Positions 18,651-46,373 of a DNA stretch of 64,000 nucleotides are shown here, one piece after another. The translations under genes and the position numbers were made by a program. The notes beneath the pieces are model-generated. The model was not told where the DNA came from, did no database searches, and saw nothing but the letters and a program-made list of their open reading frames with translations. Position 1 is the first letter of the stretch; each line of letters starts with the position of its first letter. This stretch comes from Loripinus fragilis (taxonomy: Eukaryota; Mollusca; Bivalvia; Lucinida; Lucinidae), in assembly GCA_964019695.1 (NCBI GenBank), contig OZ026521.1:29974601-30038600 (forward strand). The letters are read 5' to 3'.

Positions 18651-18685
18651 ATGGAGGCAATTAAGTGTGTATTTGTTGGTGACGA
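18651..18685 (+). CDS. Rac-like GTPase exon 1 (start, P-loop first half)
   Basis: ATG in a good context (A at -3, G at +4) opens MEAIKCVFVGD, the beta-1 strand and start of the P-loop of Rho-family GTPases (Rac1: MQAIKCVVVGD). The exon ends GA/GTAAGT and leaves two bases, completed by T of exon 2. Because of this junction, residue 12 reads D (GAT) instead of the nearly invariant Gly, and residue 13 is G. All six coding exons (35, 72, 118, 63, 135 and 156 nt) sum to 579 nt, which is 192 codons plus stop and exactly Rac1's length. The gene lies on the plus strand inside a 25-kb intron of the minus-strand glutamate receptor gene. Confidence 0.88.
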
Positions 18686-18789
18686 GTAAGTAATATATGA
18701 ATTTATAAATATTGCATTTATATCCACCCTTTTATGAGAAAAAATTCAGATATATTGTAAACATTTCCTTCCGTCTGTCCGTACGCTTG

Positions 18790-20165
18790 TAGGGTTAACC
18801 TTCAGAGGTTAACCCAATATATTTGTAATAGCAATGGAACATTATGAACCTCAGAACGTGAACACATTTTTCATTTTATGACCGAGGGTGTTCATATTTG
18901 TTACAATGCTTGCCGATGGTTTGCATATAACAACGAATGTCAAATATACTTTAAATTTGTCAAGTGGCTCGTTACGCAAACTCCTCTTCTTGGAGTCGAA
19001 GGCCAATGTCACATATGCTTAAAACCCGTCTACAGGCTTGTAACGAGAAGTCCTGTCTCATTTTTTAACCGAAAGTGTTCATGTTCGGCAAAATGATTGC
19101 CTTTTGTGTATAGATAACAAAATAGTTTTCGGAATACTATATGATCTTGATGTCAAAGGCCAAGGTCAAATATTCTTAAAATCTGTCTTAGAGCTCGTAA
19201 TGTGAATTATCCTTTCTTTTTTACCGGTAGGTGTTTATGTTCAACACAATAGTTTCCTATGGTGTGTAGATTACAACGAATGTTTTAATTCATCGATACG
19301 ACCTTGGAGTCAAAGGTCAATGTCAAAGATGCTTAAACTCTGTCTTTCGGAGGGTAACGCGAATTCATATTTCATGTTTTTGATAGATGGTGTTCATATT
19401 TAGCGCAATGGCTGTTGAAAGTGCGTAGATTACAACAAAGGCAAAGATTTGGTACCAGTAAAATGCATTTAAGCCCCCCGGTGGCTTAGGCTGCTGTCCG
19501 TTCTAAGGCGGTGGTTCTGTTGTTGTTGACTTTTTGTTTATTGTTACTCCCATTGTGGGAGTCTGTAATTGTTCTATGTTTTGTTGTACGTTACTTAATA
19601 TCCATTCTAGTATTGCAATCACCTTGATGGGGAAGAGAGAGCTGATTGCTTTGCTTAATTTGTCTTCCTGGTGTCTCGTGATGGTTGAGCGGCTCTTCCT
19701 CGCGATGCCGCGGGGTTGTCTGCAGTTTGTGATTGTGGTATTTCCTGATCATACTCACTTACTATTTTTATTATCATCGATATGACTTTGGAGTCAAAGG
19801 TCGAGGTCACATATGTTTAAAAATCTATCTTACGACTCATAAGCCGAATTCCTCTTTCTTTCTTTTTGATGGATGGTGTTCATATTTTGCACAATAAGTG
19901 CGTATGGTGTAAAAATTACAACAAAGGCTACTTATCACTGATATTGTCTTGAAGTCGAAGGTCAATATCACTGCTATGGATATGGAGCCAAAGGTCAACG
20001 TCAAATGTGTTTAAAATCTGGCTTACGACTTATAACGCTAATTTCTCTTTTATTTCTTGATTGAGGGTGTACTTACAATGGTGGGTAGATTACAACAAAT
20101 GCTTCAGATCACCCATATGACCTTGGAGTAAATGGTCAAGGTCAAATATGCTTTTAATCGTTCGC
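18790..20165. repeat. Tandem array, about 170-185-bp units
   Basis: Seven or eight diverged units, each with 'GGAGTCAAAGGTCAAGGTCA', 'AAATCTGTCTTACGAGCTCG'-like, 'GGTGTTCATATTT' and 'GTGTAGATTACAACAAA' segments, in intron 1 of the Rac-like gene. A family-B repeat (19475-19772) is inserted in one unit. AGGTCA-type half-sites recur once per unit. Confidence 0.8.
19475..19772 (+). mobile_element. Family-B dispersed repeat, longest copy
   Basis: Begins CCCCGGTGGCTTAGGCTGCT and ends TATTTCCTGATCATACTCAC; about 300 bp. It is homologous to 56283-56570 (minus), where the mirror end reads CCTAAGCCACCGGGG. It interrupts the surrounding tandem array, so it is younger than the array. No coding capacity; possibly a SINE or LINE 3' end. 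Confidence 0.75.
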
Positions 20166-20321
20166 TGCTCACATACACATATGTAGATGAAGGATCTTAC
20201 CACACTCTGGAGAGCCCATCAGTTGCGTATACAGAGTGGTTTTCGCATATGCGATCATACCATTAATTCATGGGATGGTCTAAATCATTTGTTTCACATG
20301 TTATTTGTTATTCTATTCTAG

Positions 20322-20393
20322 TGGTGTGGGTAAAACCTGTCTATTGATCAGCTTTACCACTAAAGTGTTCCCCGGTGAATATGTTCCAACTGT
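20322..20393 (+). CDS. Rac-like GTPase exon 2 (P-loop, switch I start)
   Basis: Acceptor TTCTATTCTAG and donor ACTGT/GTAAGT bracket 72 nt that finish the P-loop (G-D-D-G-V-G-K-T, residues 10-17) and encode [18 protein letters not shown], ending in V36. T17 (Mg binding) and T35 (switch I) are kept. The exon leaves two bases of a Val codon, completed by the first G of each exon-3 alternative, so both intact copies of exon 3 splice in frame. Rac1 here has CLLISYTTNAFPGEYIPTV. Confidence 0.93.
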
Positions 20394-20399
20394 GTAAGT

Positions 20400-21120
20400 A
20401 TAGCAAAAAGGGACTAGTTGTCAGTTGTCGCCCTTGATAAGCGCATGCGAGCTGTTAAGAATAATCTAGATACATGTAAGTGAAACGTTTGAGCAGAATA
20501 GTGTGGTTATTTTCTTAACCATGACCTTAAACATTTGTTTTGGGTGCTTAAAAGAACCGTCTCACATGTTTCAATGGAAAAATAAGAAAAATTTTCAATA
20601 TTTTCAATCAAACACACCCTTATCTTGAAGCCTGGTGCAGCGAATGAGGAATATTTGATATCACTCTCTTAACCGTAGGACTAAATGGGCGTATGCGTGA
20701 ATATTTTAAACAAAATACAAACCAGATACTAAAATGCTCAAAAGTTGCAGGTCAAGTGATAATTTGAAAAAGGAAATATAAAAAGATTTTTTTTCTTTTT
20801 TTTTTCGGCAGCATTTATAAGTATTGCAGCGTGTCAAGTCTTGTGGTCATTTCCAGTGGCACAGTAGTGGTGTCGACGATTCACAGCAGTAATTCATGCC
20901 AGGGGAGGTCACAACCGCTATTGAAATGTACGAGTATTTATGAATGTTTGGATTAATGTTGATTTCTTCGACAATGCATTATTGTTAGTTAAATAAATAA
21001 AATGCAATTTTCTTTACTGATTTCTAAAGATGGGACAATGAAATTTATTTTTGTAAAAATGAATTATCTCAGTTGTTATATTTATCAAAATATGAATTAT
21101 GTTTATGAAAATAAAACGTA
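20400..21120. other. Intron 2, proximal part
   Basis: At about 20540-20565 a fragment of the foldback family (GCTTAAAAGAACCGTCTCAC) is present. Otherwise nothing is recognised. Confidence 0.4.
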
Positions 21121-21121
21121 T

Positions 21122-22500
21122 TGTTGTATGACTGGAGAGAATCCTGTCTCCTGATTGGCCAAATCTGTCTTCATTAATCTCTATGTCTATCTCAAATCTG
21201 GTCTAAACTGGCTAAGAAGATGATATAGGATGAAATCCAGTTCAAACTTGTCTCCAGAAGTTAATATTTTTGACACTTCTGCAATATAACCCTCTAGAGA
21301 GCTGAAAACAGCATGATGAGTGTAAAACTAGCATGTGCTGCATGAAATTGACATGATTTGCTGTTTCACATCTCAACAGGTAAACTAAAGACTTTCATGA
21401 ATTTTAACAACTGTTTTGTTATGTGTTGTTTGTTCATTTATCTTTGTTTGAATAAACAAAATGTAAAAAAAGTTTTATGATTAAATTTTACATTCCACAT
21501 TTTGAGAATTAATATACATTTCAAATTGCAAAATACTACATTAAAATATTTTAATAACAGTTGATAAAACTTGTTAGAAAGTCCTTAGGTTGAATGTTGA
21601 CTTCAACAACAAAAGTGAAAGTAGAACATTTTCATTCTAAGTTGAAAAGTCATATAACAAAACAGTTATCGACTTCAATTTCGGTAGACATGAGGATTTA
21701 TCTATCCTTAAAAGTGATATTAACCTTGGCCTAGCGGCCTCGGTGAATTATCACTTTTTCAGGTAGATAAATCCTTATGTCTACCTCATTGAAGTCAATA
21801 ATTGTATATTGTTATATGACTGGAGAGAATCCTGTCTCCTGATTGGCCCAATTTGTCTTCATAAATCTCTATGTTTACCTGAAAACTGGTCTACATTGGC
21901 TCAGAAGGTGATATAGGATGAAATCCAGCTCAAACTTGTTTCCAGAAGTTAATATTTTTGACACTTCTGCAATATCACCCTCTAGAGAGCTTAAAACAGC
22001 ATGATGAGTATAAAACTAGCATGTGCTGCATGAAATTGACATGATTTGCTATTTCACATCCCAACAGGTAAACTAAAGACTTTCATGAATTTTAACAACT
22101 GTTTTGATATGTTTTGTTTGTTCACTTATCTTTGTTTGAATAAGCAAAATGTAAAAAAAAATTTATGATTAAATTTTACATTCTACATTTAGAGAATTAA
22201 TATACATTTCAAATTGCAAAATACTACATTAAAATATTTTAATAATAGTTAATAAAACTTGTTAGAAAGTCCTTAGGTTGAATGTTGACTTCAACAACAA
22301 AAGTGAAAGTAAAAGATTTGCATTCTAAGTTGATAATTCATATAACAAAACAAAGTTTTTATTGACTTCAATTTCCGTAGACATAAGGATTTATCTACCC
22401 TTAAAAGTGATATTCACCTCGGCCTAGCGGCCTCGGTGAATTATCTCTTTTTCAGGTAGATAAATCCTTATGTCTACCTCATTGAAGTCAATAATTGTAT
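21122..22500. mobile_element. Two tandem copies of a 688-bp unit with foldback end
   Basis: Unit 1 (about 21122-21806) and unit 2 (about 21810-22500) are roughly 95% identical, both starting near TATGACTGGAGAGAATCCTG. Each ends in a hairpin (about 21672-21798 and 22362-22490) with arms GTAGACATAAGGATTTATCT and the complement AGATAAATCCTTATGTCTAC around CGGCCTAGCGGCC. No reading frame of note. It lies in Rac-like intron 2. Confidence 0.85.
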
Positions 22501-23449
22501 ATTATATGTTGTTGCGAAAACTTACATAAAATCAGAGAGTGGCTTCTACGGTAGGTTACAATTTAGCACTTTTTGTGTTTGTTTTAATAGCACATACTAT
22601 AGTCCGTACAGAATTTCAGTGAACATCGTTTTTCTTTTTTAAAATGTCTTTAATGATAAAATTTTGGACCAGAATTTTGCACATACATATAATAAAACAC
22701 CGCCTAATATACAATTGCATATTTGAGTATTTATGATGGGAAAATAAGTCTGGAATCTCTTGTGAAATAAAATAACTTAGCCATTTTTGGTTTAGAAAAA
22801 TCCTTATTTTTCCTCAGTGTATTTCATATGGGTAGCACGTGGTTTATACAGTTCAATGATTACCATGTTTACTTTCGTATATGATAAATAAAACGGTCAC
22901 CAGCAGGATAACTCTTGGTATTTCTATATATTCACCGAAAATGCTTTGAAGAGACTGCACAAATTACAATTCTGTCTGAGTTATCATATTTCACGATGAT
23001 CAAATTTCGCATCTTGTTTTCTTATATGTGTCATGGTTAAATGACACATATAGCAATTGGACCGCGACTGAGAAAACCTGTCTTCGGTGATTTGTAACAA
23101 TAAAAGCCCAGACTTCATCTGCTTTTTGAGAAGAATTATCCTAAGACTTGCCTCGTGCGAAAAAAAATCAATTTTCTATCTAGCCTGTTTAGCCGAGACT
23201 CGCTTTGTCGGAAACCCAGAAAACAGGTTTTCTCGCGTCGTGGCCTGTGTTGCTTGCTCGACAGCTCTAGGACAAATACTTCAAGTGCAACAGATAATAA
23301 TATTAAAAACATATATAATGAGGAGGATATATTAACGGGAATCGCAGTATTTGATTGCACTCTTCGTCGTCGTCGTAACTAAGGCCCACAGAGCCTGGGA
23401 ACGGCGGGGGCTTTGATTTTCTGGCAACAGGTCTCTGGTTTGACCACAA
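22501..23449. other. Intron 2, middle part
   Basis: Short overlapping frames at 23087-23382 have no family features and occur on both strands, so they are not supported. Nothing else is recognised. Confidence 0.4.
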
Positions 23450-23725
23450 GTGCGGATCCAGAGGGGGGACAGGGGGTCCGGACCCCCCTGGAAAATCACA
23501 AGTTATATGGGTTTCTATAGGGAATAAGCGATTGGACCCCCCCCCCCCCCCACATGGAAAGAGTTGGACCCTACTGAAAAATGTTGGACCCCTCTGGAAC
23601 CTTGAAAAATGATAGGTTTCTTCTAAAAATTAACCATTTGACTTCAGTAAAATAAGCTGAGGACTGAAAAAACAGATTGACCTGGACCCCCTTGACGAAA
23701 ATTCCTGGATACGCGCATGGACCAT
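23450..23725. mobile_element. GGATCC-family element with C/G runs
   Basis: Starts GTGCGGATCCAGAGGGGGGA and ends CTGGATACGCGCATGG, with TIR-like termini. The interior 'GGACCCCCCTGGAAAATCAC' and 'TATGGGTTTCTATAG' match the copy at 25901-26193. It holds a run of about 15 C's near 23540. Confidence 0.75.
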
Positions 23726-23762
23726 GCACTAACAGCGCATTTGCCCGGCTTGTGCGTGGCTA

Positions 23763-23812
23763 CAAATGACTGGTGCACATAACTTCTTTCGTCTTTATGC
23801 ACCAGTCATTTG
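23763..23812. repeat. Perfect hairpin AAATGACTGGTGCA
   Basis: CAAATGACTGGTGCA and its reverse complement TGCACCAGTCATTTG flank a 20-base loop. 'CATGACTGGTGCATTA' recurs at about 24092, marking the other end of a segment of about 330 bp that may be one element. Confidence 0.65.
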
Positions 23813-24122
23813 TGACCACCACCACCACCCCCCCCCCCAGCTCAGAGGAATGTCGAGGACTTTGACTTTGTGTCTGCAGTTCCCCATAGTAACCACCATA
23901 CTGCAGGGGCAGCTAGCTGGCAAAACCATGACAGTTCTCCCCCCGCAGTCTATTATTATACTGCACAGCAATGTTTGTCTAGGTCTATCAAACCCCTATA
24001 TTTCCCACGCATTGTGGAGACAACGTAAAAGTAAAAACACAGCACAATATATCCCCATCCTGCTCAGAGGCTTGGGTGAAGCAGTGGTTACACATGACTG
24101 GTGCATTATTTATAGCCTATGA

Positions 24123-25156
24123 TGCACTTCGCATGAACATTTAGTTCTCAGCCACCCCAAAAACATCCGCTTATATATTGTTCAACCTATTTCCAAGCAC
24201 ATTCCCACCCCGTCACTAGTTTCTCTTTCCAACCTCAGCATCATTTAAATTGGATGAGTCTTTTTTCACTTGAATCACACCTGACGGATGAGCCCTGTGA
24301 TTATTTTATCTTATCACTTATAGTTGCCCGGAGTTACGTTATGGCATGCATGTTTTGCATTGTCTGGCGTCAACAAATTAGTATTTGGAAAAAAAAGATA
24401 GAAAGTTCAATTTATTTAATAAAACACGTTTGATTTTTTTTAAAAATCTAATGATTAGAGAAGGAGCAGGGAACACCGAACATCAAGATTTTGAATTGAG
24501 GAACAGGGGAATACAGAGATTAATTTCATAGGAACAAACGGACGGGTACCTACTTGGAAGGCCTCAATATTTTCTCGTATGACAAAATTCTTTGCGCCCA
24601 AACTATGGCCATAATTTGCATTTGATTTTGATATGATAAGAGTCCCTTCTCCTTATACGTTACTTCGTCTTATAAAACCGTATAATTATTCATCGATAGT
24701 AAACTAAAGGCAGTGGTCCGTACAAAGGTGCATTTAGGGTAAATTAAAAAATGCAGATGCTCAAATGAGGACAAATTCTATCATATCACAGCCTATTTGA
24801 CAATACATTTTGTAACGAAAAAAATATCACCAATTAGGCGGTGTATAGATGTATTAAATTCTGATGGTCATTGTGCGATCAGTCCGCACATAACGAAATA
24901 AACGCAAAAAAGCGTTGTACACTGAATTCCTGTATGCACATTAATACACTTCACCATGCTTAACAGATGTTAAACAATCGGTATCTAAACAGAAAATAAT
25001 TTACATCATAATATACAAAATGACGGTTATATTTCAACCAGACGAGCCCTATAAAACAAGTGACCAACTGTTAAAATTATTGGACCCAAGCCAATTTGTC
25101 ACTTAAATAATAGTGCACCCAGACTGGCAAAAACTGCAAAATAGCAAATACTGATA
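24123..25156. other. Intron 2, distal part
   Basis: No gene or clear repeat is recognised. Confidence 0.4.
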
Positions 25157-25530
25157 GCTACTGTCCTGCCAGCCAAGAGTTACAGTGACTTCATGTTTTG
25201 TTTACAAAGTTATCAGGGACTTATAATCGATAAATCACTTGTATTTATCCTATCCACAGGATAGGATTAATACACAAGTGATATATCAATTCGCGTTAGC
25301 TCAAGTGGCATGTACACGTTATACTTGGCACACGATCAGCGTAAAGTTACTAGTTGGTCACGTTATGCTATTACATTCACTTGATTGGACAAGTACATAT
25401 ATTTCTTTCATACTTCTAACGGTAAATGTAATTCGTAGCTGTACTCTTATTGCGTGTGAACTCTAGCGTTTTACTTAGCAATTGCAAACAAAGTATTACG
25501 TCACTGCCACTCTTTGTTGGCACGACAGTA
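25157..25530. mobile_element. Palindromic MITE (long copy)
   Basis: Starts ACTGTCCTGCCAGCCAAGAG and ends near TTGTTGGCACGACAGT. The central palindrome TATCCTATCCACAGGATAGG is flanked by matching arms (ATCGATAAATCACTTGT; ACAAGTGATATATCAA). A shorter copy of the same element lies at 35905-36135, directly beside exon 5 of the Rac-like gene. Confidence 0.8.
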
Positions 25531-25855
25531 GTACTGTTTCAGAGAAACAATAGTGTAGAGATGTTTCTGTGTGAATCTTGAAATAGGAAAATCGCTTTTT
25601 ACAATTATTAATATTAAGCAAGTGTCAAGCAACGGGTAAATGTTGGCCTGTGCGCCCATTTAATATGCAGACCAGCCTGTGCATCCGCACAGTCTGATCA
25701 GAGCCTTTCAACGGGTTCTCTACGGGTAGCCATGCAAGGATTAAACGTTTCCTAAGCGGAAAACTAAGACTGCAGATGTGGAGACTTATTTGAATCTTAA
25801 CTATATGCACACGTCCACTTGTACCTGAACACCGACTTATTTAGTCTTTCTGTAG
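25531..25855. other. Intron 2, end
   Basis: A diverged repeat with 'GCCTGTGCATCCGCACAGTC' and 'TGATCAGAGCC' (25640-25720) resembles the interiors of the 32-bp-TIR MITEs. The last 40 bases (GTACCTGAACACCGACTTAT and the TTTCTGTAG acceptor) are homologous to the intron before exon 3a. Confidence 0.5.
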
Positions 25856-25900
25856 GTTTGACAACTGCAATGCAAATATGAACGTAGATAGCAATGCTAC
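25856..25900 (+). pseudogene. Truncated copy of Rac-like exon 3
   Basis: After the same acceptor (TTTCTGTAG) comes G TTT GAC AAC, encoding FDNCNANMNVDSNA. Homology to exon 3a stops at 25900, where a GGATCC-family element (25901-26193) begins. After the element, the upstream intron sequence (TACCTGGACACCGGC) and a full exon 3a follow. This is the first of four exon-3 copies and cannot encode switch II. Confidence 0.9.
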
Positions 25901-26193
25901 ATGGGCGGATCCAGAGGGGGAGAGGGGTTTTGGACCCCCTTCTGAAAAATCACAAAAATATAGGGTTTCATAGCAGTACTGGTCCGGATCCCCTAAAAAA
26001 GCACAAAACTACCAAGCCAGCATTCAATTTCGGGCCATCATCGCCACGCCAGCGAAACGCCATTTAAATGGGATTTCGCTCGCGGGCACATGATGCGTGC
26101 CCTCTTTTATTGCTATTTGAATCCTCTCTCCCCTCATCAAAAAAGCATTGTCAGAGTTTGAGCCCTCTGGCAAAACTATCTGGATCCGCGCAT
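25901..26193. mobile_element. GGATCC-family element inside the exon-3 cluster
   Basis: Starts CATGGGCGGATCCAGAGGGG and ends ACTATCTGGATCCGCGCATG (imperfect TIRs). The core AGCGAAACGCCATTTAAATG and reverse arm are palindromic. It separates the truncated exon-3 copy from exon 3a. Confidence 0.85.
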
Positions 26194-26229
26194 GTACCTG
26201 GACACCGGCTTTTTTAAGTATTTCTGTAG

Positions 26230-26347
26230 GTTTGACAACTACAATGCAAATATGAACATAGATGGCAATACAAGATCTGTTGGATTATGGGATACAGCCG
26301 GACAAGAAGCATACGACAGACTAAGACCGCTTTCCTACCCACAAACT
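26230..26347 (+). CDS. Rac-like GTPase alternative exon 3a (switch I/II)
   Basis: Acceptor TATTTCTGTAG, donor ACT/GTAAGT, 118 nt. It encodes [13 protein letters not shown], then [20 protein letters not shown] and LSYPQT (residues 37-75): the effector loop after T35, the interswitch, the G3 motif DTAGQ with the catalytic Gln at position 61, and switch II. Rac1 reads FDNYSANVMVDGK and [20 protein letters not shown]37, D38, N39 and Y40, which contact Rac/Cdc42 effectors, are kept; residue 63 is A instead of D. Using 3a gives a 192-residue protein. Including both 3a and 3b would shift the frame. Confidence 0.92.
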
Positions 26348-26407
26348 GTAAGTATGCATGAGCAAATATATTGCTTTTACGATTATAACATTTTAGTGTT
26401 TCTGTAG

Positions 26408-26522
26408 GTTTGACTACAAGGCAAATATGAACATAGATGGTAATAATAGACTTGTTGGATTATGGGATACTGCGGGACAAGAACAATACGACAGACTAAG
26501 ACCTCTGGCCTATCCTCAAACT
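26408..26522 (+). CDS. Rac-like GTPase alternative exon 3b (switch I/II)
   Basis: Acceptor GTGTTTCTGTAG, donor ACT/GTGAGT, 115 nt, only 60 bases after exon 3a. It encodes [15 protein letters not shown], then [19 protein letters not shown] and YPQT. Compared with 3a it is one codon shorter in the effector loop (FDYKAN against FDNYNAN), so the N39-Y40 pair is altered. It also has Q instead of A after GQE and A instead of S before YPQT. G3 and the catalytic Gln are kept. It is in frame with exons 2 and 4, giving 191 residues. The intact frame, splice signals and selective-looking differences argue that it is used as a mutually exclusive alternative to 3a. Confidence 0.88.
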
Positions 26523-26580
26523 GTGAGTATATATGGGCAAGCGTTTTGCTTCTACAGTTATCAAATTTTCAGTATTTCTG

Positions 26581-26697
26581 TTTGATAACAACAGTAATGT
26601 TTTGAAAATAGAAGGGGAGGAAAGAACTGTTGCATTATAGGACTCTGCTGGGCAAAAAGCGTGCGATAGAATCAGACCTCTTTCTTATCCTTCAACT
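26581..26697 (+). pseudogene. Decayed third copy of Rac-like exon 3
   Basis: Homology to exons 3a/3b continues as [19 protein letters not shown], then TAG in place of the conserved Trp codon, then DSAGQKACDRIRPLSYPST and a retained GTGAGT. The acceptor has lost its AG (CTG/TTT instead of TAG/G). Switch II residues are eroded (K-A-C for E-x-Y). It is non-functional. A GGATCC-family element begins just after its donor. Confidence 0.92.
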
Positions 26698-26702
26698 GTG
26701 AG

Positions 26703-26940
26703 TACACATGCGCGGATCCAGAAAGTTTTGCCAGAGGGGGTCCAACTTTGACAACTTTTTTATAGTTGATGAGAGAAGGAAGGTTCCAAATACCACTATC
26801 AGCGGGCCAGCGAAACTCAATTTTAATGGCGTTTCGCTGTTTTGCTGGCATGCTGATGATGGCCCAATATACCCTATATTTTTGTAATTTATCAGGGAGT
26901 CCAGACCCCCTGCCCCCACCTCTGGATCCGCGTATGCTAC
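26703..26940. mobile_element. GGATCC-family element after the exon-3 cluster
   Basis: Begins CACATGCGCGGATCCAGAAA and ends CCACCTCTGGATCCGCGTAT, in the opposite orientation to 25901-26193. The core AATGGCGTTTCGCTG is shared. The two elements bracket the three downstream exon-3 copies. Confidence 0.8.
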
Positions 26941-27057
26941 ACATGATAGTTTTGTACTTATCGCATGTGCGCAAACGTCTCCAGTAATCGCCCATGCTGA
27001 CGCATCTAGCTTGGGTAGAGGTCTAAAATTTGTTCTAAGTTTTCATCTACCGTCCAT

Positions 27058-27060
<3 letters not shown>

Positions 27061-27088
<28 letters not shown>
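27061..27088. repeat. (TA)n microsatellite
   Basis: Fourteen TA units. Confidence 0.95.
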
Positions 27089-27130
27089 GCCAGCGGCTAA
27101 CCATACAGTGCAGAGATTCGCCTGAGTCTT

Positions 27131-27358
27131 CGTTGCTCGATAATGCGCCTACGTTGCTCGATAATGTGCCTACGTTGCTCGATAATGCGTCTTCGTTGCT
27201 AGATAATGCACCTTCGATGCTCGATAATGCGTCTACGTTGCTCGATAATGCGCCTTCGTGGCTCGATAATGCTCCTACGTTGCTCGATAATGCGCCTACG
27301 TTACTCGATAATGGGCCTTCGTTGCTCGAAAATGCGCCTTCATTGCTCGATAATGCGA
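27131..27358. repeat. 21-bp minisatellite, about 11 units
   Basis: Consensus GTTGCTCGATAATGCGCCTAC. Because 21 is a multiple of three, the array is open in several frames, for example repeating LLDNAPT on plus and SSNVGAL on minus. Substitutions such as ATG/TGG for the first Leu and GGG/GTG for Ala occur without stops. No splice or family context supports a protein. It lies in Rac-like intron 3. Confidence 0.9.
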
Positions 27359-27524
27359 TAGGTAACAAAAGCTCATGTCATGTGCTAGCCCATTTTATTT
27401 CATCGAATAATATTGCTTTACATCAAATATAAGCTTTATAAAACCAATTGTTTAAGAGTCATAATTGTGACAATTTATTTTCCTACTTTCCTATTAGCAT
27501 CTATTTAACTATCAAACATAATAC

Positions 27525-27582
27525 CACCTTTACCAACTTTAGCACGAACCATCTCGTAATGTGCAAAGTCAACACTGATGTA
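27525..27582. repeat. Left half of a repeat split by a transposon
   Basis: 'CCTTTACCAACTTTAGCACG' through 'AACACTGATGTA' matches 12100-12155. The right half resumes at 28606 (TAGGTGGTATAAAATAATTG). See the element between them. Confidence 0.85.
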
Positions 27583-28605
27583 CAGTCAAGGACCAAAAGT
27601 AATTCCACAAAATTAATTTCACATAGACTTTAATGCACTTACATGTTTACAAGAATCTCTTTGGATGAAATAGCAAATACTTTGTAATTGTGATTAAGTT
27701 AAATAATAGATGCATGTACTGTACAATTTAGATGAAATTTCGTCTTTGCACTTTTCAAATACAACGGTTTCAACTTTGACAACATTTTGAATATAGCAAG
27801 AAGTGAGCAAAGCTCACATACCCCAGGCGGTTGCCTTTAAAGTTTGTAACACTTTCAGAGAAAAGACAAAATTGTTAAAGATTTCATAATCCTTAATCAA
27901 ATAGTTTCTGAGAAAACTTTGATGAAAAATGTCCCAATGTGTTATATAGGAGTGACAGAAGGAAAAATTAAAAATTTGAAAAAAAGAAGGCAAAATGAGG
28001 ATTAGCATCTTAATTTTCATTTACACAACACACTTTGCCTACCTGAAGGTGTACTCAAAATTTGAAAACACTGGCTCCAGTAGGAGCTGCGAAATCTGTG
28101 ACGGAAATTTCCATTGGAGAGAAAGAGAAATGAACAAATAAAGGGACTAATAAGCAATATGTGGCTGTTTGTTTTGTTACACAATACAACTCATCACTAT
28201 CAAGCTTTGTACTAAGTTTCAGAGCCCTAAGTCGAGTAGTTGCTGAGAAATCTTTGACAGAAAAAAAGTTTACAGACAAACAAAAAAACAGAATAATTAC
28301 AGAAAAGGCAAACACTATATACCCGCTATATACTTCGTACCGGGGGTATAGAAAATACCTCTTTTCCATTGGTGTCAATGGTAAAGTTGTCCAAAAATTG
28401 TCTAAAAATCTTGAAAATTGTTTAAATTTCTGCAGCTTTAAAATGCCTGAATATAACCTTAATCATTTGACTTTCAAATGACACCAAAAGCATAATATTA
28501 TGTTGACAAGCCGTACGTAATATTTTTTTCTTGCTTGCAAACGTGAAACTACACTGAAGTCTATGGGATTTCTGACACTATGGAATTACTTTTGGTCCCT
28601 GACTG
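27583..28605. mobile_element. TA-flanked DNA transposon relic, 1023 bp
   Basis: TIRs CAGTCAAGGACCAAAAGTAA and, from the right end, CAGTCAGGGACCAAAAGTAA (about 25 bp, one mismatch). TA is duplicated on both sides. CAGT-type termini with TA duplication are typical of Tc1/mariner elements. The interior contains frames (28055-28378 minus, 28161-28481 plus) without transposase motifs, so it is non-autonomous. The empty target, with a single TA, survives in the homologous repeat at 12090-12290. Confidence 0.92.
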
Positions 28606-29019
28606 TAGGTGGTATAAAATAATTGTTCACAGGGTTGTCCACAGGCTGTACGGGTGCTCTATTCTTTCAGGATTAGCAATTTCATCCAACACTAATACAT
28701 GCTTATACACTAAATATTTAATAAAATTGGTGTGATCAATGATTAGAATAGTTTATGGTACAAACCAAAATATAGAAATTTGGATATCGTCGAATAGAAA
28801 ACATTTTGTCATATTTCGTTAAAAAGACGTTAAGCTTTTAGTGTTATGATTATTCAATAAAGACTAGAAAAGAGCCCACGCAAGCGCGGAAATATTTCAT
28901 GATTGTCAATTTACCTTTATTTTGCATTTAAAAAAGCTGAAACTTGTATCCCCCTTTCATGTGTGTTAATTTTTCACAGCTTTATGAAATCTGAAACTTG
29001 TATTGGCGATTCTAGTCGC
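28606..29019. other. Right half of split repeat and intron 3 DNA
   Basis: 28606-28680 continues the repeat interrupted at 27582. The rest holds nothing recognisable. Confidence 0.5.
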
Positions 29020-29400
29020 CGAAATGACCATGGGCCCAAATAGGTATGGGCCGAAATGACCCGAAACCGGCGAGTTTTAATTTTTTTTACAAAAGCTGAT
29101 ACTTGTAAACATGATTATGCTTATATCTTCTCATCTTGAAAATCACTAAAAATCTTCAGCGAGGTGACTTTTACTATATTTGTTTTCCTCCAAACAATGC
29201 CAAAAATCGCTCAAATCCAGGTTCTTATTTCTGAACAATGCACTTTTTTAAACAGATTTTATTGATAGCGTCATTGCCTACTGCGTCAAGTGGTACGACC
29301 AAGCCTATCAATGTAAGCTGTTTAGCGACCTTGAAACTTAGGATTATTGAGCGTGAGTCAGAGAAAGGTGTCTTGAACTTTCATAACTCTAGTTGCCATC
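29020..29400. repeat. Dispersed repeat pair, copy 1
   Basis: Shares 'GGGCCGAAATGACCCG', 'ACAAAAGCTGATACTTGTAA', 'CTTCAGCGAGGTG' and 'TTGATAGCGTCATTGCCTAC' with 31020-31345. Copy 2 lacks about 85 bases here. A phrase translating VKWYDQAYQ looks briefly like the Rac W97 region but is part of this repeat. Confidence 0.8.
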
Positions 29401-29892
29401 AATGGTAGTAATTAACTATTTTATAGAAGTTCTGTTTGTTTTGTTACTGTTTTGTGAGTCCCCCCCCCAAAAGTCTGTACTTGTTTAAAGCTAGTGTCAA
29501 TTTAAGTTTATACTAAGGTCTGCTGATTATTATAGTTTAGTGTTGTGTTGGTTACTGGTACTGTCCAAAAATAGGGACAATGTCGGAAAAATTAGTCTGC
29601 AATTTTTTAAGTGGTAGCTGCCCAAACCAATAAATGAGTGGTTTTCACACTCAAAATGCAAAGAAATACAATATTTAAGGAAATTTTTGTAGATCTATAC
29701 CAAATTATCTTCTTCAAAGGCAAACCTGGAAATGTCGTTACTTTTCGTGGTTAAAAAACAAACTTTTTCTCCTTATTTTTCTTCCAACTTCTGATTGGGA
29801 ATTTTACTGTGCCAATTGGGAAAAAGGAGGTGTTTCGCCTTTGGGAGTGGGGCCGAATTTCGCCCCCCAAAATGGCCTGAAAAGGAACACTG
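29401..29892. other. Intron 3 DNA
   Basis: Nothing recognised apart from a C8 run at 29461. Confidence 0.4.
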
Positions 29893-29902
29893 ATGCCGAA
29901 AT

Positions 29903-30106
29903 GGTTTGGATTGATTGGTGTTTTACGTCCCGGTAAACAATTTTTCAGTCATGTTGAGACGGAGCCACTTCTTCCTGGGTATTATTAGTACTTTGGGAAG
30001 GTGAAAGTGCCTTTCTCAAGGACACTACACAGCGGTCGTGGGGTTCGAACTCGGGGCCTCTAGGTCCCGAGTCCGACGCTCTACCACTGAGCCACCGCGC
30101 CTCCAT
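29903..30106 (-). mobile_element. tRNA-derived SINE, complete, with 10-bp TSD
   Basis: Minus-strand head GGCGCGGTGGCTCAGTGGTA contains box A (TGGCTCAGTGG); box B is GTTCGAACCCC (complement of 30040-30050), both at tRNA-like spacing. The direct repeat ATGCCGAAAT flanks it at 29893-29902 and 30107-30116. The body matches the SINE at 1710-1921. The internal pol III promoter looks intact, so transcription is possible. Confidence 0.92.
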
Positions 30107-30229
30107 ATGCCGAAATACACTTCCCTTTTTACGACCATTATAGGCGAAACGGAGCGGTCTGGGGCGAAGTATTTCGCCGATTTGCCCTCAAACTGGAACC
30201 CTGCTTGTACCTGAAAGCTAACATATAAA

Positions 30230-30740
30230 ATTTGGGTTTGATTGGCCCATCAATTTCCGAGAAAAGCCAGTTTTAATTTTCATATACGTAAATGACCTTT
30301 AGCCAAGGTCAAGAAATGACCTCGGCCTTCAATACTCACAATTCTTCATTATTTCAGTTGGTTTCAGGTCAGAGGCTGAAATATTTGTGAAAAAATCAAC
30401 AGCTTTCACTTTTTCCTGTAGAAAAGCCTAAGTTAACAAATTTGACCTTGTTGTAAAATTGGTCAAGGTCAACCGTAGGTCATCATTTGAACAAAGTATG
30501 ATGGGCAGAGTCACCACTGCTACATACCAAGTTTCGTGGAAATTGGTTCACCGGTTCCGGGGAAGAAGATTTTTGAAGGGTTTTTACCATATATGGGCGT
30601 GGCGGCCATCTTGGTCATGTGACCCAGATGCAACAAACAAACTTTCGTTCCCCCTACCCAAAGAGGCTCCACATAAAATTTGTCTTTGATTGGTCAAATG
30701 GTTTCCGAGAAGAAGATGTTTGAAATTGTTGACGACAACG
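30230..30740. repeat. Dispersed repeat with AGGTCA motifs
   Basis: Tandem-like segments with 'AAATTTGGGTTTGATTGGCC', 'TTTCCGAGAA', 'GAAATTGGTTCACCGGTTCC' and 'GTGACC' recur two or three times (30230-30290, 30520-30570, 30680-30720). No gene is supported. Confidence 0.6.
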
Positions 30741-31019
30741 GACCATGGGCATCCTACATATAAGCTGACATATGCTGCTAAGGTGAGCTAAAAACAAATT
30801 CAACCTCAAGCCCTCACCAGTAGCTTGCACCTGACCGTTCTAAGGTGGTGATTTTGGTGTAGTTCTTACTTCGTTATTTGCATACCTGTCAACTTTTTGA
30901 AATCTTAAAGAGTGAGATTGCGCGCGACGCCCTTAAAATGGTTATTTTCTGCTCGCATTTACCGCGCGGACCAATTTTACCAAATTTTTTAGGAGTGAGA
31001 TTTATTTTTTTCTAAGAAC

Positions 31020-31345
31020 CAAAAAGGGATTATTGGGCCGAAATGACCATGGGCCGAAATGACCCGGAACCGACGATTTTTTTTTTATTTTCTTTTTACA
31101 AAAGCTGATACTTGTAAATGCGGTTATGTTTATTTCTTCTCGTCAAGAAAATCACAGAAAAACTTCAGCGAGGTGCCTTTTACTAATAATATTTGATAGC
31201 GTCATTGCCTACCGTGATATAAGTGGTACGACCAAGCCAATCGATGTAAACAGTACATTATGCGCAGCGACCTTGACACTTAGGATTATTAAGCGCGTGT
31301 CGAAGAAAGGTGTGATGATTACCGCGACTAATAATCAGTTTTGAT
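31020..31345. repeat. Dispersed repeat pair, copy 2
   Basis: Second copy of the repeat at 29020-29400, same orientation, about 2 kb downstream, with a deletion of about 85 bases near 31195. Confidence 0.8.
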
Positions 31346-32060
31346 AAGGGATTATTTAAAATTACAGCCATATCTTTTTTTCTTTGGCGAGTTTGGCGGC
31401 GTTTTCCCCATTGTTGTTTATAATATGGCCGACTTGACACAGCATAATACACATATACATATGACATATACACAAAAATTCGGAACGCTTCGGTCATCTC
31501 CATTCAGTTTGTATTGGAAACCCAATCGATCTAAAAATAGTGACGCGTGACCATGAACGTGACATACACTAAATATAGAAACATTCGCCAGAGGGCGCAG
31601 TTCTTTTAGAAAACACACTTAATTCCAAAATTCTCTAAATCTATGCTAAATGAAAACTCATCCTAACCGAGATTATCAATGAAAGCAATATCTTAAAGTA
31701 ACAGTAAAGAAATCAAGCATGAAAATGACCTCGATTTTTCAGTTTATGCGGTAATTCGTTTATTTAGTATTATAGATACTTATGTATTTACCCTATGTTC
31801 TGCTGAATATGATTAAACTCCAAATTGACCTAAGTTTTCCATTCCGTCCAATTATAAAATAAACTTATAACAATGTATCAAACCAAAACAAACAGTGCGA
31901 ATACTAATCAGTTAGCTTCTGGAGAAGCCACCTAATCTGCAACGACGCTGCTTTCAATCGGGAATACATCTAGATAAAGCAGGGCAAGCATTGACAGGCA
32001 ATGACTTGATTTCGTATTTTTCATCATTTTCGATGCTAATATTATTTTTTTCTTTTTAAG
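31346..32060. other. Intron 3 end
   Basis: Frames at 31341-31618 overlap on both strands and have no family signature. Nothing else is recognised. A pyrimidine-rich tract (TTTTTTTCTTTTTAAG) precedes exon 4. Confidence 0.45.
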
Positions 32061-32123
32061 GATGTATTTGTGATTTGTTTCTCTGTAGTCAAGCCATCAA
32101 GCTTTTCAAATGTCAAGACAAAG
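32061..32123 (+). CDS. Rac-like GTPase exon 4
   Basis: Acceptor TTTCTTTTTAAG and donor AAAG/GTATGT bracket 21 codons, phase 0 to 0: DVFVICFSVVKPSSFSNVKT and K. Rac1 residues 76-96 read [21 protein letters not shown]. This is beta-4 and the following helix, core of the GTPase fold. The long array 32303-34625 starts about 180 bases downstream. Confidence 0.94.
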
Positions 32124-32302
32124 GTATGTATTTTGTAGAGAATATCACATTGTAAACTCTTGCTAGTCTCTAATAAACTTAGTGAAAAAACGAAGTGAAT
32201 GATACAGACCAACCAGTGGGAACACCCAGAGGAAGAAAAAGTAACACTCATACAAACAAGGGAACACGCGTGGAAGCAAAGAGGAATGTACATTTTCTCT
32301 TT

Positions 32303-34625
32303 TTTATGCCCCAAAGGAACTTTGGGAGGCATATAGTAATCGCACTGTCCGTCCGTCCATTAGTCCGTCCGTCCGTCCGTCCTACTTCGTGTCCGGAGCA
32401 TATCTCTTATATTCTTTGAGGTAGGAATTCTAAATTTGATGTGTGTATACATCTTGGGATGAAGGATAGTTGCATACCATTTTTGGGTCACTGTGACCTT
32501 GACCTCTGACCTAGTTTTTATTATAATCGTGTCTGGAGCATATCTTTTATATTATTTGAGGTAGGAATCTCAAATTTTAGTGTGTGGATGCATCTTGGGA
32601 TGACGAAGTGTCGCCTACCAAAATTGGGTTACTGTGACCTTGAACTTGACCTCTGACCTAGTTTCTAGAAACTGCATTGAGTCTGGTGCATATCTCCTAT
32701 ATTCTTTAAGATAGGAATTCAAAATTTTGTGTGTAAATGCATCTTGGGATGAGGCAGTGTCACATACCGTCTTTTGGTCACTGTGACCTTGCCTTTAATC
32801 TCTGACCTAGTTTTAAGAATTATTGTGTCCAGAGCCTATCTCTTACATTCTTTGAGGTAGGAATTCCAAATTTGGTGTGTGGATGCATCTTGGGATGGCC
32901 GAGTGTCGTGTACCATAATTGGGTCACTGTGACCTTGAACTTGATCTCTGACCTAGTTTTTAGAAACTGCATTGAGTCTGTTGCATATCTCCTATATTCT
33001 TTGAGATAGGAATTCCAAATTTGGTATGTAAATGCATCTTGGGATGCCTGAGCGTTACATACCATTTTGGGGTCACTATAAACTTTGGCCTTTGACCTAG
33101 TTTTAGAATAATCGTGTCCGGAGCATATCTCATATATTATTTGAGGTAGGACTTTCAAATTTGGTTTGTTGATGCATCTTGCCGTGACAAAGTGTTGCAT
33201 AACATAATTGGGTCACTGTAACCTTAACCTAGGGCTCTGACCTAGTTTCTAGAAACTGCGTTGAGGGATTTGAGTCTGATGCATATCTCTTATATTCTTT
33301 GAGATAGGAATTCCAAATTTGGTGTGTAAATCCATGATTGGATGACAAAGGATCACATACCATTTTTGGGTCATTGTGACCTTGACATCTGACCTAGTTT
33401 TAAAAATTCTTGTGTCCTGAGCATATCTAATATTCTTTGAGTTAGGAATCCGAATTTGGTGTGTGGATGCATCTAGGGATAGCGGTGTGTCATGTGCCAT
33501 ATTCGGGTCACTGTGACCTTGACCTCTGACCTAGTTTTTAGAGTAATTGTGTCCGGAGCATATCTCTAATATTATTTGAGGTAGGAATCTCAAATTTGGT
33601 GTGTGGATGCATCTTGGGATAACAAAGTGTCACATACCATAATTAGGTCACTGCAACCTTGATTTTGACCTCTGACCTAGTTTCTAGAAACTGCATGGAG
33701 TCTGGTGCATATCGCCAATATTCTTTGAGATAGGAATGCCAAATTTGGTGTATAAATGCATCTTTGGATGCCTGAGTGTCACTTACAGTTTTTGGTCACT
33801 GTGACATTGACTTCTGACCTAGTTTTAAAGAATTATTGTGTCCAGAGCATATCGCTTAATATATTCTTTGAGGTAGGAATTCCAAATTTGGTGTGTATAT
33901 GCATCTTGGGATGACAGAATGTCACGTATCATTTTCGGGTCACTGTGACTTTAACCTCTGACATAATTTTAATAATAATTGTGTGCAGAACATATCTTTG
34001 TCTTTTTTCTCTCCAAAAATTTGGTGTGTGGATGCAACTTGGGAAGGTGGAGTGTCTTGTACCATTTACTGGTCACTGTCCCCTTGACCTGGCCTATTTT
34101 TAGAATAATCATGTTTGGAGCATTATTTTTCTATATTATTTTAGCTAGCAATCCCAAATTTAAGGTGTGGTTGCATCTTGGGATGGCAGAGTGTAATGTA
34201 TCAAGTTTTGTGACCTTGACCTAATTTCTACGACAATCGTGTCAGGAGCATATCTTATATATTATTTGAGGGAGGAATCACAAATTTGCTATATGGTTAC
34301 ATCTTTGGATGCTGATGTGTCGATGCCGTTTTCAGGTCACTGTGATCTTTACCTATGACATAGTTTTTTTTAAATAATTGTGTCTGGAGCATATCTTCTA
34401 TATTATTTAATGTAGGAATCCAAAATTTGGGGTGTTGATTCCTCTTGGGATGGCAGAGTGGTGCATACCATTTTGGGTCACTTTGAACTTGACATTGACT
34501 TCAGGCCTCATTTCTAGGTATTTCGTGTCTGGAGCATATCTCCTTTATTACAGCTAACTTTCCTCAAATGTGTCTTATGCTAGACCAATTCCTTTGGGGC
34601 ATTCGTCACGTGTTTGTGACATTTC
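32303..34625. repeat. Two-type tandem array of about 145-bp units
   Basis: About 15 monomers of 138-151 bp. Type A starts GTGTCCGGAGCATATCTC; type B starts GAGTCTGGTGCATATCTC and is preceded by CTAGAAACTGCATT. Their order is roughly A A B A B A B A A B A, with later units diverged. Most units carry 'GGGTCACTGTGACCTTGACC' or 'CTCTGACCTAG'. The array starts after ATGCCCCAAAGGAACTTTGG and a GTCC microsatellite (32347-32380), and ends near CCTTTGGGGCATTCGTCACG, so it may be the inside of one mobile element. Rac-like intron 4. Confidence 0.88.
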
Positions 34626-34779
34626 TTGTTTCTAAAACAAGAAAGGGCGCAAGGCTCTATGTCACAAATTCAGGAACAAACACTTGTTCCCACAAACCAA
34701 TGAAGCGAAAACAAACAATGTGTAAATAACATCAGAATCAAAGCCATAGAACTAATAGCAGCCCCAACCAGTGGTAGTG

Positions 34780-35110
34780 GGGGTAATTTTTACTTGCAAA
34801 ATCCTTGCCATATAGTTTGTTGCTGTTACACCAAAACCTTTTAGCTAGCATAAAGGCGTTCTTGCTTAGGCAATGAATCTCCACAGAGAACCAATTAACT
34901 CAAATTAACTTACTGTTGCGAAACAGAAAAAAGAGGTGGGGGGGGGGGGTTAAAATATATCTTATTGGCCAAATCTTCGCCATAGATTCTGCTGTTGTTA
35001 AAACACAAATTATGTTTAGCGTATGTCAAGGCCTCCTAAAATATGCAATGAATCATTACAGGAAAACAAGCAAATCAAATTAACATACTGTGATGAAGCA
35101 AAGAAATACG
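34780..35110. repeat. Family-C repeat, two tandem copies
   Basis: 34790-34925 and 34950-35110 share 'TTGCCATAG', 'TGCTGTT', 'AATGAATC' and 'CAAATTAACATACTGT'-like segments, separated by a G10 run. A third copy is at 56573-56730, also next to a G run. Confidence 0.7.
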
Positions 35111-35762
35111 CTCTTAACTCAAAGACAGTCTGGGACTGAGGACTGACCCACCATCGTGCAATTGCAGTTTAACAATGATTGGTTATATAACCAGGCATGC
35201 AGAAATTCATAACACACCTACGTCATAGCATTCTCTATTTATTGTTTATCTTTTAGAAGGAATCAGAAAAATACCTTACTTGCGATCCTTTGAAATTTAT
35301 AAACTTGACCACCTTAAAATGTGGGATTTGATTTTCTCTGTTGTAAAAAAGTTTTAAAACGATTGTTATATTCAATAATCAATTATGAGTGTCTGCGATA
35401 TTATTTTGAAAATGCTTTATGAATTTATGATATCTATAACCATGTTTGAGAAACGTAACAGTCCAACACTTTTTCCTATTATTGAAGTCAATACCATTAA
35501 AATGAAACTTATGAATCTCATAATCAGAACTATCCTGTTTATCTAATTTAAAAAAAGATGACATTTGTTTTAGATTAGTCAAAGTAAAAAGGGGACTTCA
35601 GTCGCACAAGAACTTGCTTGATTAATTAGAATTGAGTGTGAATCACATTCAGGTTTGCCAATGTTGTTTGCTATTTCGGCTACTAAAGAATATCATCAGA
35701 TTACAAAACAAATGACAGTTGTTATTAATGGGGAATTCAATGATTCAGTTAATGATTTGCAG
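35111..35762. other. Intron 4 end
   Basis: No gene is recognised. The reading frame open upstream of exon 5 from 35655 is intronic: exon 5 begins after the AG at 35761-35762. Confidence 0.5.
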
Positions 35763-35897
35763 TGGCACCCTGAAGTTATGGAACACTGTCCCAACACGCC
35801 CATGGTGTTGGTTGGAACTGAAATGGACCTGCGTGGTGACCCTGGTGTAATGGAAAATCTCAAAGTAAAGAATCTTACAGCAGTGACTTACGAGCAG
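35763..35897 (+). CDS. Rac-like GTPase exon 5 (G4 motif, Lys to Glu)
   Basis: Acceptor GATTTGCAG, donor GAGCAG/GTAACA, 45 codons, phase 0 to 0. It encodes WHPEVMEHCPNTPMVLVGTE, then MDLRGDPGVMENLKVKNLTA and VTYEQ (residues 97-141). It is collinear with Rac1 [20 protein letters not shown] and [20 protein letters not shown], including the Rho-specific insert. The guanine-specificity motif T-K-L-D is T-E-M-D: Lys116, which packs against the base, is replaced by Glu. Seven bases after the exon a palindromic MITE begins. Confidence 0.94.
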
Positions 35898-35904
35898 GTA
35901 ACAC

Positions 35905-36135
35905 CTACTGTCCTGTCAGCCAAGAGTGACAGAGGCGTCATGTGTTGTTTATAAAGTTATCAGGGACTTAGAATCGATAGATCACTTGTGTATTAATCCT
36001 ATCCACAGGATAGGATTAATACACAATTGATCTACCGATTCGCGTTAGCTCAAGTGGAGTGTACAAGTTAATGTTTAACTTAACAGTTGTAAACAAAATA
36101 TTACGTCACTGGCACTGTTGGCTGGCAGGACAGTG
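35905..36135. mobile_element. Palindromic MITE next to exon 5 donor (short copy)
   Basis: Starts CTACTGTCCTGTCAGCCAAG and ends TTGGCTGGCAGGACAGT. Central palindrome TCCTATCCACAGGATAGGA. It is homologous to 25157-25530. Its left end lies within about 8 bases of the exon 5/intron border, leaving only the GTAACAC donor. Confidence 0.85.
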
Positions 36136-36254
36136 CAATTCAATTTCTGTTTATATTTATCTAAATAAATATAACCCAGATGGTTCTTAGGGATTTTAAC
36201 ATTATTCAATGCTGTATCTGACAGGCCCTTTAGTTGAGAGTATGTACCAAAATT

Positions 36255-36370
36255 ATTATTTTTATTTCTCAATCAAAACATAAGTTGTGGGTACTCAAAC
36301 AAATCAATGAGACGGCTCTTTTGAGAACCCGAAGCACATGTTAAGAATGAAGGGTAAGAAAATTTTCACA
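36255..36370. repeat. Foldback-family copy (GAGACGGTTCTTTTGAG)
   Basis: 'TTTCTCAATCAAAACATAAG', 'TGTGGGTACTCAAA' and 'GAGACGGCTCTTTTGAGAAC' match the complete copy at 59850-59985. Confidence 0.7.
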
Positions 36371-37389
36371 TTCTCCAAAAACGTGTTTACCTTAACCTAC
36401 GGTATCAGTATCGCTTACAGATTTACGCACATCAAAGAGAAATAACTGAAGTGAGCAGTGATTACATTCAATTGCATCTCTGTTCAAAAGAAGAATTTGC
36501 GCTCAGAAGGAGCAAATTCTTCCCTTAAAAGACCTACATGTGTTTACTCTAAAAGTACTACCACTGCTGATTACTTTATGACCTTACATTAGCTCTATAC
36601 TGGCCGATATAAAGGGTGTGTCCTAATGTGAGGATGATGAGCTATCTGCATGTGGTAACAAAGAAGCTTTCTAAGGACGTTTGGCTGTTTTTGAGCGGTT
36701 TATCTATACCAGTACCTGTACCTGTTCACTAGATATATACTTATGGGGCCCCTGTCACTCTGGTGAGTTATTAGGATGTACGTGATTTTGCAGGAGGCAA
36801 TCTCTTATAAGTTAAATTCAAATAGCGGCCTATTATCACAAATATAGGTCTTTATGGACATATGCTATTAAATACTTCCCACATTAAAATATGTTCAATA
36901 GTTTGTATACAGTTTGTTTTATGTCAATTTATGAAATAAAAATGATATGTCACCATGCTCAATTTTCAAAATCTCAGCACAGTAGCTTAGCAGGCTAGGT
37001 TCAGCATTGCATGGTCGCAAATCCCGAAACCCAATGCTCATATGGAATGCTATAAGTTTCAAAATAGGCTCAGGAGTACGAGCTTCAATGTAATGAGAGC
37101 TAGTTTATTATGTTCATTATTATTCTCTCCCACACATACCCCATATAACTTTTAGTTTCTACTAGCTATAACGTTTGTATATTGTTTCACCTACGTAGCA
37201 TGGCATACCATTTGGTATCATGTATCATGCATTGTTGTCTCAATAGTCAACCGTGTCATCATCACTTTTTTTGCTTACTGCGAAATAACTTTTTTAAGGA
37301 TGCAATAATTTTAACCTAAAACGTGTTATGGCCAGGAAATGCATAAAACATATTATGTTGTCGTAATTTGTTAATTCTTTCTCTTGCAG
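36371..37389. other. Intron 5, remainder
   Basis: At 36885-36990 'TTTGTATACAGTTTGTTTTA' and 'ATGTCACCATGCTCAATTTT' recur at 44215-44310, marking another dispersed repeat. No gene seen. Confidence 0.5.
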
Positions 37390-37545
37390 GGGGAATGTTT
37401 AGCAGAAACTATTGGGGCGTTTAAGTATGTAGAATGTTCTGCAAAAAGCCGGGAAGGATTGATGTCTGTATTTGAGGAAGCTTTGAGGGCACATGATCAA
37501 AACAGTACGAAACATGAAGAAGAACAAGAAACTATGGCTGAATGA
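37390..37545 (+). CDS. Rac-like GTPase exon 6 (C-terminus, no CAAX)
   Basis: Acceptor TTTCTCTTGCAG, 51 codons and TGA. It encodes GECLAETIGAFKYVECSAKS (G5 motif C-S-A at residues 157-159), then REGLMSVFEEALRAHD, which is the last helix of the fold. Rac1 continues with a polybasic stretch and a CLLL prenylation box. Here the tail is acidic and Gln/Glu-rich (NSTKHEEEQETMAE) and ends without any Cys. The predicted protein is therefore not geranylgeranylated and should not attach to membranes in the usual way, unless another terminal exon is used; I found none with a CAAX box nearby. Confidence 0.93.
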   Translation, partial: GECLAETIGAFKYVECSAKSREGLMSVFEEALRAHDQNSTKHEEEQETMAE

Positions 37546-45490: not shown

Positions 45491-46373
45491 TATTAAAATT
45501 TGAATTAAAATGAAAATTATCGCCCAACGACCCTTAAAACGGAAATGGAGTCGTCCAATTGACATCAGTGGGAAATTCCATTCGGCTTAAATGGGTTATA
45601 GGCTAGCAGTTAACCCTTAGCCTGTCCTGTATTTTTACGACTCCATCGTATATTCTAATGAACCAGGCCACCTGAATGAACTCAAACTAGATTCATCATG
45701 TAAGCAAACAAAGTGAATTACTAAAGAAGCAGTCGTCTCTGGGTTAATATTATTTGCATTATAGGTTACCAAAATAAGTTGACAGATGAGAAAGCAGTTG
45801 GAATTCGTAGTGAATGGCGGGAAAGGGCTAAAGCGTTAATAAATTAATCCCCATTAGAACCCAATTTCCTATGATTCAAAAGAAAAACTACTGTTACTCA
45901 CAGTACGAACTATTTGCCTGACGTGAATGTTTTGGGCACTCAGTCATTGGTTCGTTTTCTTGAAGTGAGATATCAGAAACAATCAGATGCGACAAGACAG
46001 TTCATCGACATACATTATGGACACGTGACAAAATGGCGATCGGTTGTATGTTTTGATTTTTGCGGAGAAAAAAATAATGAAAATGTGATTATCTGTTGAA
46101 CTTTCGGGGTCTCTGTGAATCAAAGTTTTGGAGGAATAACGTTAAAATGTGGTACTGACCACTGATAGTGAAAAACTGTGTATAGTATGGAAATTTAGGA
46201 ATTTTCTGGATAAAACAATAGCTTCTATAGTACGTATCAACGTTATTCATGCATGATGTTATTTATATAATATGAGATAAACTCTTTCATTTGAATATTT
46301 AACGGTACACTCTATAATAGGACAACCCCTGGCAAATTTTTTCATCGGTACAGGTGATGCTCATAAGTCTGGA
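45491..46373. other. Upstream region of the ORF1-like gene
   Basis: No gene is recognised; it could include the element's 5' untranslated region. Confidence 0.35.

Follow-up and report, generated by a model that had tools for sequence, protein, structure and literature searches.

The exons that distinguish RAB6A from RAB6A' are tandem duplicates, and in Rac proteins switch I and switch II decide the choice of partners. RAB6A and RAB6A' arise by alternative splicing and differ at three residues (PMC11529276, PMC3578815, PMC1950890). Mutually exclusive duplicated exons have been described in G-alpha genes, namely preGNAI exon 6, preGNAQ exon 5, GNAQ/GNA11 exon 4 and GNAO exons 7-8 (PMC5896119). 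In RAC1B, an extra 57-nt exon adds 19 residues at the codon 75/76 junction (PMC6356296). The locus described here is a Rac-like gene in which exon 3, encoding the end of switch I, the interswitch and switch II, is present in two usable versions. As in G-alpha genes, a GTPase exon has been tandemly duplicated and would be swapped by splicing at interaction surfaces, which for G-alpha are those for Gbetagamma, RGS proteins and effectors; unlike the heterotrimeric G-alpha subunits, for which alternative transcripts have been reported, the product is a small Rho-family GTPase known from sequence alone (PMC5896119). As with RAB6A, a single small-GTPase locus would yield two near-identical full-length forms via substitution splicing, whereas RAB6A is a Rab and the forms predicted here differ at five residues, with one more deleted in switch I. 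The likeness to RAC1B is that splicing at the codon 75/76 junction would alter Rac switch behavior, while instead of an insertion the exon would be replaced by its own duplicate (PMC6356296).

Mutually exclusive tandem exons are already known, G proteins included; what would be new, conditional on transcripts, is their occurrence as Rho-family switch exons. A first-pass annotation of this DNA knew of no Rho-family gene described with switch exons that can be exchanged, and we also found none with duplicated exons of this type in the literature searched, which consisted of titles and abstract openings and included few subscription journals. A paper on tandem-duplicated exon events in human does not use the words RAC1, CDC42, Rho, GTPase or RAB6A in its main text (PMC9741552). 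A locus that exchanges its switch module would, if true, be a domain swap made by nature, in which effector specificity could be studied.

The gene occupies positions 18651-37545 on the + strand of the window, i.e., the whole stretch of 64,000 nt analyzed, and has six coding exons, all of them on this strand. Exon 1 (18651..18685) encodes MEAIKCVFVGD and bases 1-2 of codon 12; its tblastn match to RAC1 is weak (E 0.33), and the assignment leans on position, donor and frame. Exon 2 (20322..20393) extends from the P-loop to V36 and completes codon 12, an Asp codon (GA/T) interrupted by intron 1. Exon 3 follows as two intact copies, 3a (26230..26347; residues 37-75) and 3b (26408..26522; 38 codons, N39 deleted). 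Exon 4 (32061..32123) encodes residues 76-96, in exon 5 (35763..35897) GTEMD replaces GTKLD (Glu116), and the coding part of exon 6 (37390..37545) ends in EEQETMAE followed by the stop codon, without a CAAX box. Exons 2, 4 and 5 were placed by tblastn and in silico splicing, and both copies of exon 3 by frame, splice ends and a family profile, to which a Rac match is added for 3a. All introns are GT-AG and all six exons are open upon in silico splicing, which yields an isoform a of 192 aa with exon 3a and an isoform b of 191 aa with exon 3b.

The tblastn query was a human RAC1 sequence; matches were counted at E below 1, and those up to E 50 were discounted as chance level. A single ordered six-exon set was obtained on the + strand of the window: exons 1, 2, 4, 5 and 6 were matched once each and exon 3 in three copies, with one extra, spurious match inside exon 3a. 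The match of exon 3a to Rac1 (E 3.3e-16) is far from chance. Neither a second Rac gene nor further duplicated exons were found in the window at E below 1, and since each other exon was matched once and exon 3 repeatedly, multiplication within the window is confined to exon 3. Known RNA families gave 0 matches in the window at gathering score.

Exons 3a and 3b are adjacent, homologous and phase-matched, each with its own splice ends (acceptors TTTCTGTAG; donors GTAAGT or GTGAGT). The first-pass annotation had their coordinates, lengths (118 and 115 nt, 233 nt jointly), 60-nt spacing, AG/GT ends and phase right, and its proposal that the reading frame enforces exclusive use held up under in silico splicing. 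Both lengths are 1 modulo 3, and exactly one copy leads to a full-length protein: with both exons included a stop is met at the second codon past T75, and with neither included at the fourth codon past V36. The annotation also proposed steric exclusion by the 60-nt intron between the copies (26348..26407, + strand), which is less certain because a 60-nt intron in an invertebrate may splice normally. Three candidate branch points, matches to the loose pattern NTNAY, would fit it: their distances from the donor are 32, 38 and 41 nt, and the steric threshold reported for donor and branch point in vertebrate splicing is about 50 nt (PMC7969005, PMC6692369). In alpha-tropomyosin and OGDH, exclusivity is enforced by a linking intron whose branch point lies close to the donor, and the same may apply here, with the difference that the branch points of OGDH were mapped and those given here are pattern matches only (PMC7969005, PMC6692369). 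All copies of exon 3, including the two dead ones described below, have a second AG 11 nt ahead of the acceptor position. It could compete with the acceptors of 3a and 3b, and splicing to it would lengthen either exon by 11 nt and put it out of frame.

We put at roughly 50% the probability that this locus encodes a Rac paralogue, divergent and probably GTP-loaded, in which mutually exclusive splicing would exchange the switch region, and we infer that both copies are spliced. Exon 3 would have been tandemly multiplied and then thinned to 3a and 3b, and the pre-mRNA would be spliced as 2-3a-4 or 2-3b-4. Exclusivity would result from the frame, other products being truncated and probably degraded, and perhaps additionally from a lack of room for the splicing machinery on an intron of 60 nt. 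If the core protein is GTP-biased and not prenylated, as its residues suggest, exon choice, more than nucleotide cycling, would set the effectors bound. The earlier claim of one locus making two GTPases with different partners keeps its basis in the two intact exchangeable switch exons, but it is too simple for a gene that Asp12, Glu116 and the missing CAAX box set far from ordinary Rac.

Two intact tandem copies of exon 3 had been annotated, and both are indeed intact, but the array actually comprises four copies, two of which are dead. A repeat search gave a start-to-start spacing of exactly 175 nt for 3a, 3b and a third copy, 3c (family D10). Copy 3c (26581..26697, + strand) has lost its acceptor AG and contains an in-frame TAG at W56. 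The fourth, copy 0 (25856..25903, + strand), was found by the repeat search (family D16) and was not among the three tblastn copies of exon 3; it retains a good acceptor, the exon is truncated by a repeat after about 48 nt, and reading onward into the repeat meets a stop. Broken frames or splice ends, as expected of a pseudogene, were found in 3c and copy 0 only. With two of four copies dead, the 3a/3b pair is the half that survives from an array with four members or more. The dead members illustrate how such exon arrays come and go.

Tandem arrays change copy number by unequal exchange, which a 175-nt array could also undergo, and the window represents one haplotype. It is conceivable that each individual or allele has one functional exon, or that the array is a copy-number polymorphism captured in one haplotype. 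We regard this as highly improbable, as 15 of 114 nt distinguish 3a from 3b, and copies that are 13% diverged are neither recent alleles nor an assembly duplicate; the latter was ruled out by the same differences.

The copies 3a-3c are bracketed by two related transposon-like repeats in opposite orientation, which we take to be MITE-like, on the left at 25904..26195 (repeat families I10, I13 and I17) and on the right at 26706..26936; both have approximate borders and no assigned strand. In a predicted fold of the sequence from one repeat to the other, made without a shuffle control, 173 base pairs link the two repeats, and the loop so formed contains 3a-3c. Exon skipping or circular RNA can be favored by inverted repeats of this kind. 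The predicted pairing around the array may weaken or regulate the gene, and it could favor skipping of both exons, which would speak against mutually exclusive use. Two further repeats were observed. A 21-nt tandem repeat at 27102-27399, spanned by ORFs on both strands, follows shortly after the exon array. The other, which is partly palindromic, is found upstream of the array at 25158-25529 and again at 35905-36134, beginning at the 8th base of intron 5.

Besides the deletion of N39, exon 3b differs from 3a at 5 of 38 residues (3b/3a: K41/N, N50/T, L52/S, Q63/A and A71/S). The aligned switch I reads FD-YKANM in 3b and FDNYNANM in 3a. The loss of one residue was correctly annotated, but of the N39-Y40 pair described as altered Y40 is retained, and the substitution is N41 to K. 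The differences extend into switch II (A63Q and S71A), and D57-T58-A59-G60-Q61 is identical in both copies. For comparison we used the union of the proteins listed from three protein searches, 239 distinct sequences that were picked by similarity to the query and are hence biased. All 237 scorable members of this set have the full F37-to-W56 spacing, and in none of them was a deletion of residue 39 or a shortened switch I found.

Pairwise comparison of 3a and 3b gave dS 0.35, dN 0.09 and dN/dS 0.26, and 0 of 20,000 random placements of the changes had so few amino-acid changes (5) without a stop. Between the introns of the two units, 14 of 57 sites are different, which is close to the synonymous divergence; the comparison of exon and intron divergence has the expected direction and is not significant (Fisher P 0.08). 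When changes were polarized using 3c and, over the first 48 nt, copy 0, four proved unique to 3a, five unique to 3b and six ambiguous. The unique 3a changes are all silent, while four of the five unique 3b changes are amino-acid changing, spread over three codons. Strong constraint thus sits on 3a, and this substitution pattern indicates that 3a is held at the protein level. The pairwise dN/dS of 0.26 is no proof of constraint on 3b, since the silent-only pattern stems from 3a.

The changes in 3b were evaluated against a profile of 103 unique exon-3 peptides, picked by similarity to the query and with residue 39 excluded, on which 3a scores 117, 3b 104 and the dead 3c 29. Given no stop, they fit the Rac-family profile better than random changes, with P 0.0003 when ambiguous sites are placed on 3b and P 0.016 when all six are assigned to 3a, in a test devised after the changes had been seen. 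The count of 3b amino-acid changes alone gave P 0.035 or 0.26, depending on the placement of ambiguous sites. By these comparisons, 3b has evolved faster than 3a, with substitutions at positions where Rac proteins tolerate change. We take this to mean that since duplication some constraint has acted on the protein sequence of 3b, looser than that on 3a; neutral drift may also account for the pattern.

Since half of the array is dead, decay of 3b is a serious rival. According to this alternative, splicing ignores or rarely uses 3b, which owes its intact appearance to its fairly recent origin and would go the way of 3c and copy 0. It agrees with polarized changes that are mostly amino-acid changing and with the loss of residue 39, which together with the two dead copies count against exclusive use of two working exons, and random outcomes without a stop are common enough (49% at 11 changes, 75% at 5). 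It agrees less well with substitutions that spare family-invariant residues, as the two profile probabilities show, and with intact splice ends and a deletion that is in frame. On balance we consider an unused 3b somewhat unlikely.

The exchangeable switch exons are embedded in an unusual core, which has none of the classical hallmarks of a cycling Rac, i.e., Gly12, Lys116 and a C-terminal CAAX box. Residue 12 is Asp and is Gly in 222 of 223 scored relatives; residue 116 is Glu, which none of 204 scored relatives has (Lys 203, Gln 1); and 202 of the 239 listed relatives end in a CAAX box. Asp63 is absent as well, being replaced by A63 in 3a and Q63 in 3b. The RAC3 variants G12R, D63N and K116N, at the same three core positions, were concluded to be gain-of-function, a term given to all 11 variants of that study; G12R strongly suppresses hydrolysis and K116N and D63N speed exchange, with only marginal effects of K116N in two reporter assays (PMC9473360). 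Asp12 and Glu116 differ from the residues tested in RAC3, so it is by analogy that we infer, from these two residues and the lack of Asp63, a protein with a probable bias toward GTP-bound forms. Alternatively, Glu116 might make the protein bind nucleotide less well. A further-reaching idea, unlikely in our estimation, is a Rho-family GTPase without a nucleotide switch, GTP-loaded with Asp12 and Glu116 and, for want of a membrane anchor, cytosolic, whose output would be set by splicing the 3a module, or the 3b module with its shortened switch I, into a fixed core; the array would then be a small, turning-over cassette, formerly of four modules or more.

A protein search found a best identity of 67%, to ordinary Rac1 proteins, among the best 120 of 7986 scored candidates, and identities of 65-67% to Rac1 proteins identify the gene as a Rac-like member of the Rho family. 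No close orthologue, i.e., none above 67% identity, was found among the matches listed in this search of 7986 candidates. With residues 33-76 of isoform b as query there were 1427 matches, the best 120 of them up to 78% identical over these residues, and with residues 76-166 a single candidate, a RhoG-like protein from a fish with 56% identity. Bivalves occur among the matches, as do many other organisms. Isoform b aligns with Rac1 over residues 1-180 with a single gap, at residue 39, and the Rho insert region is present at what is presumably its position in the alignment. The exon junction after T75 is at codon 75/76 as in RAC1 (PMC6356296). In a tree of 27 rows, 26 of them hand-picked from the 239 proteins, the gene is on a long branch (0.91) and is not placed, and bootstrap did not settle its position. 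Judged by the low identities and the single candidate for residues 76-166, this is a fast-evolving Rac paralogue without a close relative among the matches listed.

Such divergence, including the long branch, the ceiling of 67% identity among the 120 matches listed, the lone candidate for residues 76-166 and the residues at 12, 116 and the C terminus that set it apart from scored relatives, would also be seen if the whole gene were a decaying or non-signaling Rac copy and both exons relics of an earlier function. We find this decidedly unlikely, because none of the six exons is interrupted and their ends are GT-AG, whereas random substitution at 20% left only 1.1% of simulated copies stop-free, the changes unique to 3a are silent without exception, and the protein reaches a Pfam Ras score of 162.5 bits.

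Among the compared proteins, P0018 and P0122 were considered as exon-3 doublets and rejected, as their repeats fall inside the exon and not at its borders. P0016, a predicted Timema Rac1, has two identical exon-3 peptides that end exactly at exon borders, with 27 odd residues between them; it represents either a duplication made by the assembly or a further case of tandem exon 3. Five bivalve and Oppia nitens Rac/Rho models (P0001, P0002, P0003, P0009 and P0021) have a second downstream exon set after the first C terminus, which suggests tandem gene or exon-block copies at those loci. Elsewhere in the window, a tandem array at 32376-34549, with units of mostly 140-150 nt rich in GGTCACTGTGACCTTGACCTCTGACCTA, occupies part of the intron after exon 4. 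A possible ORF1 at 46281-47249, whose sole Pfam match is below the curated cut-off, lies upstream of an ORF at 50232-53810 that resembles those of non-LTR retrotransposons and contains an endonuclease and a reverse transcriptase domain.
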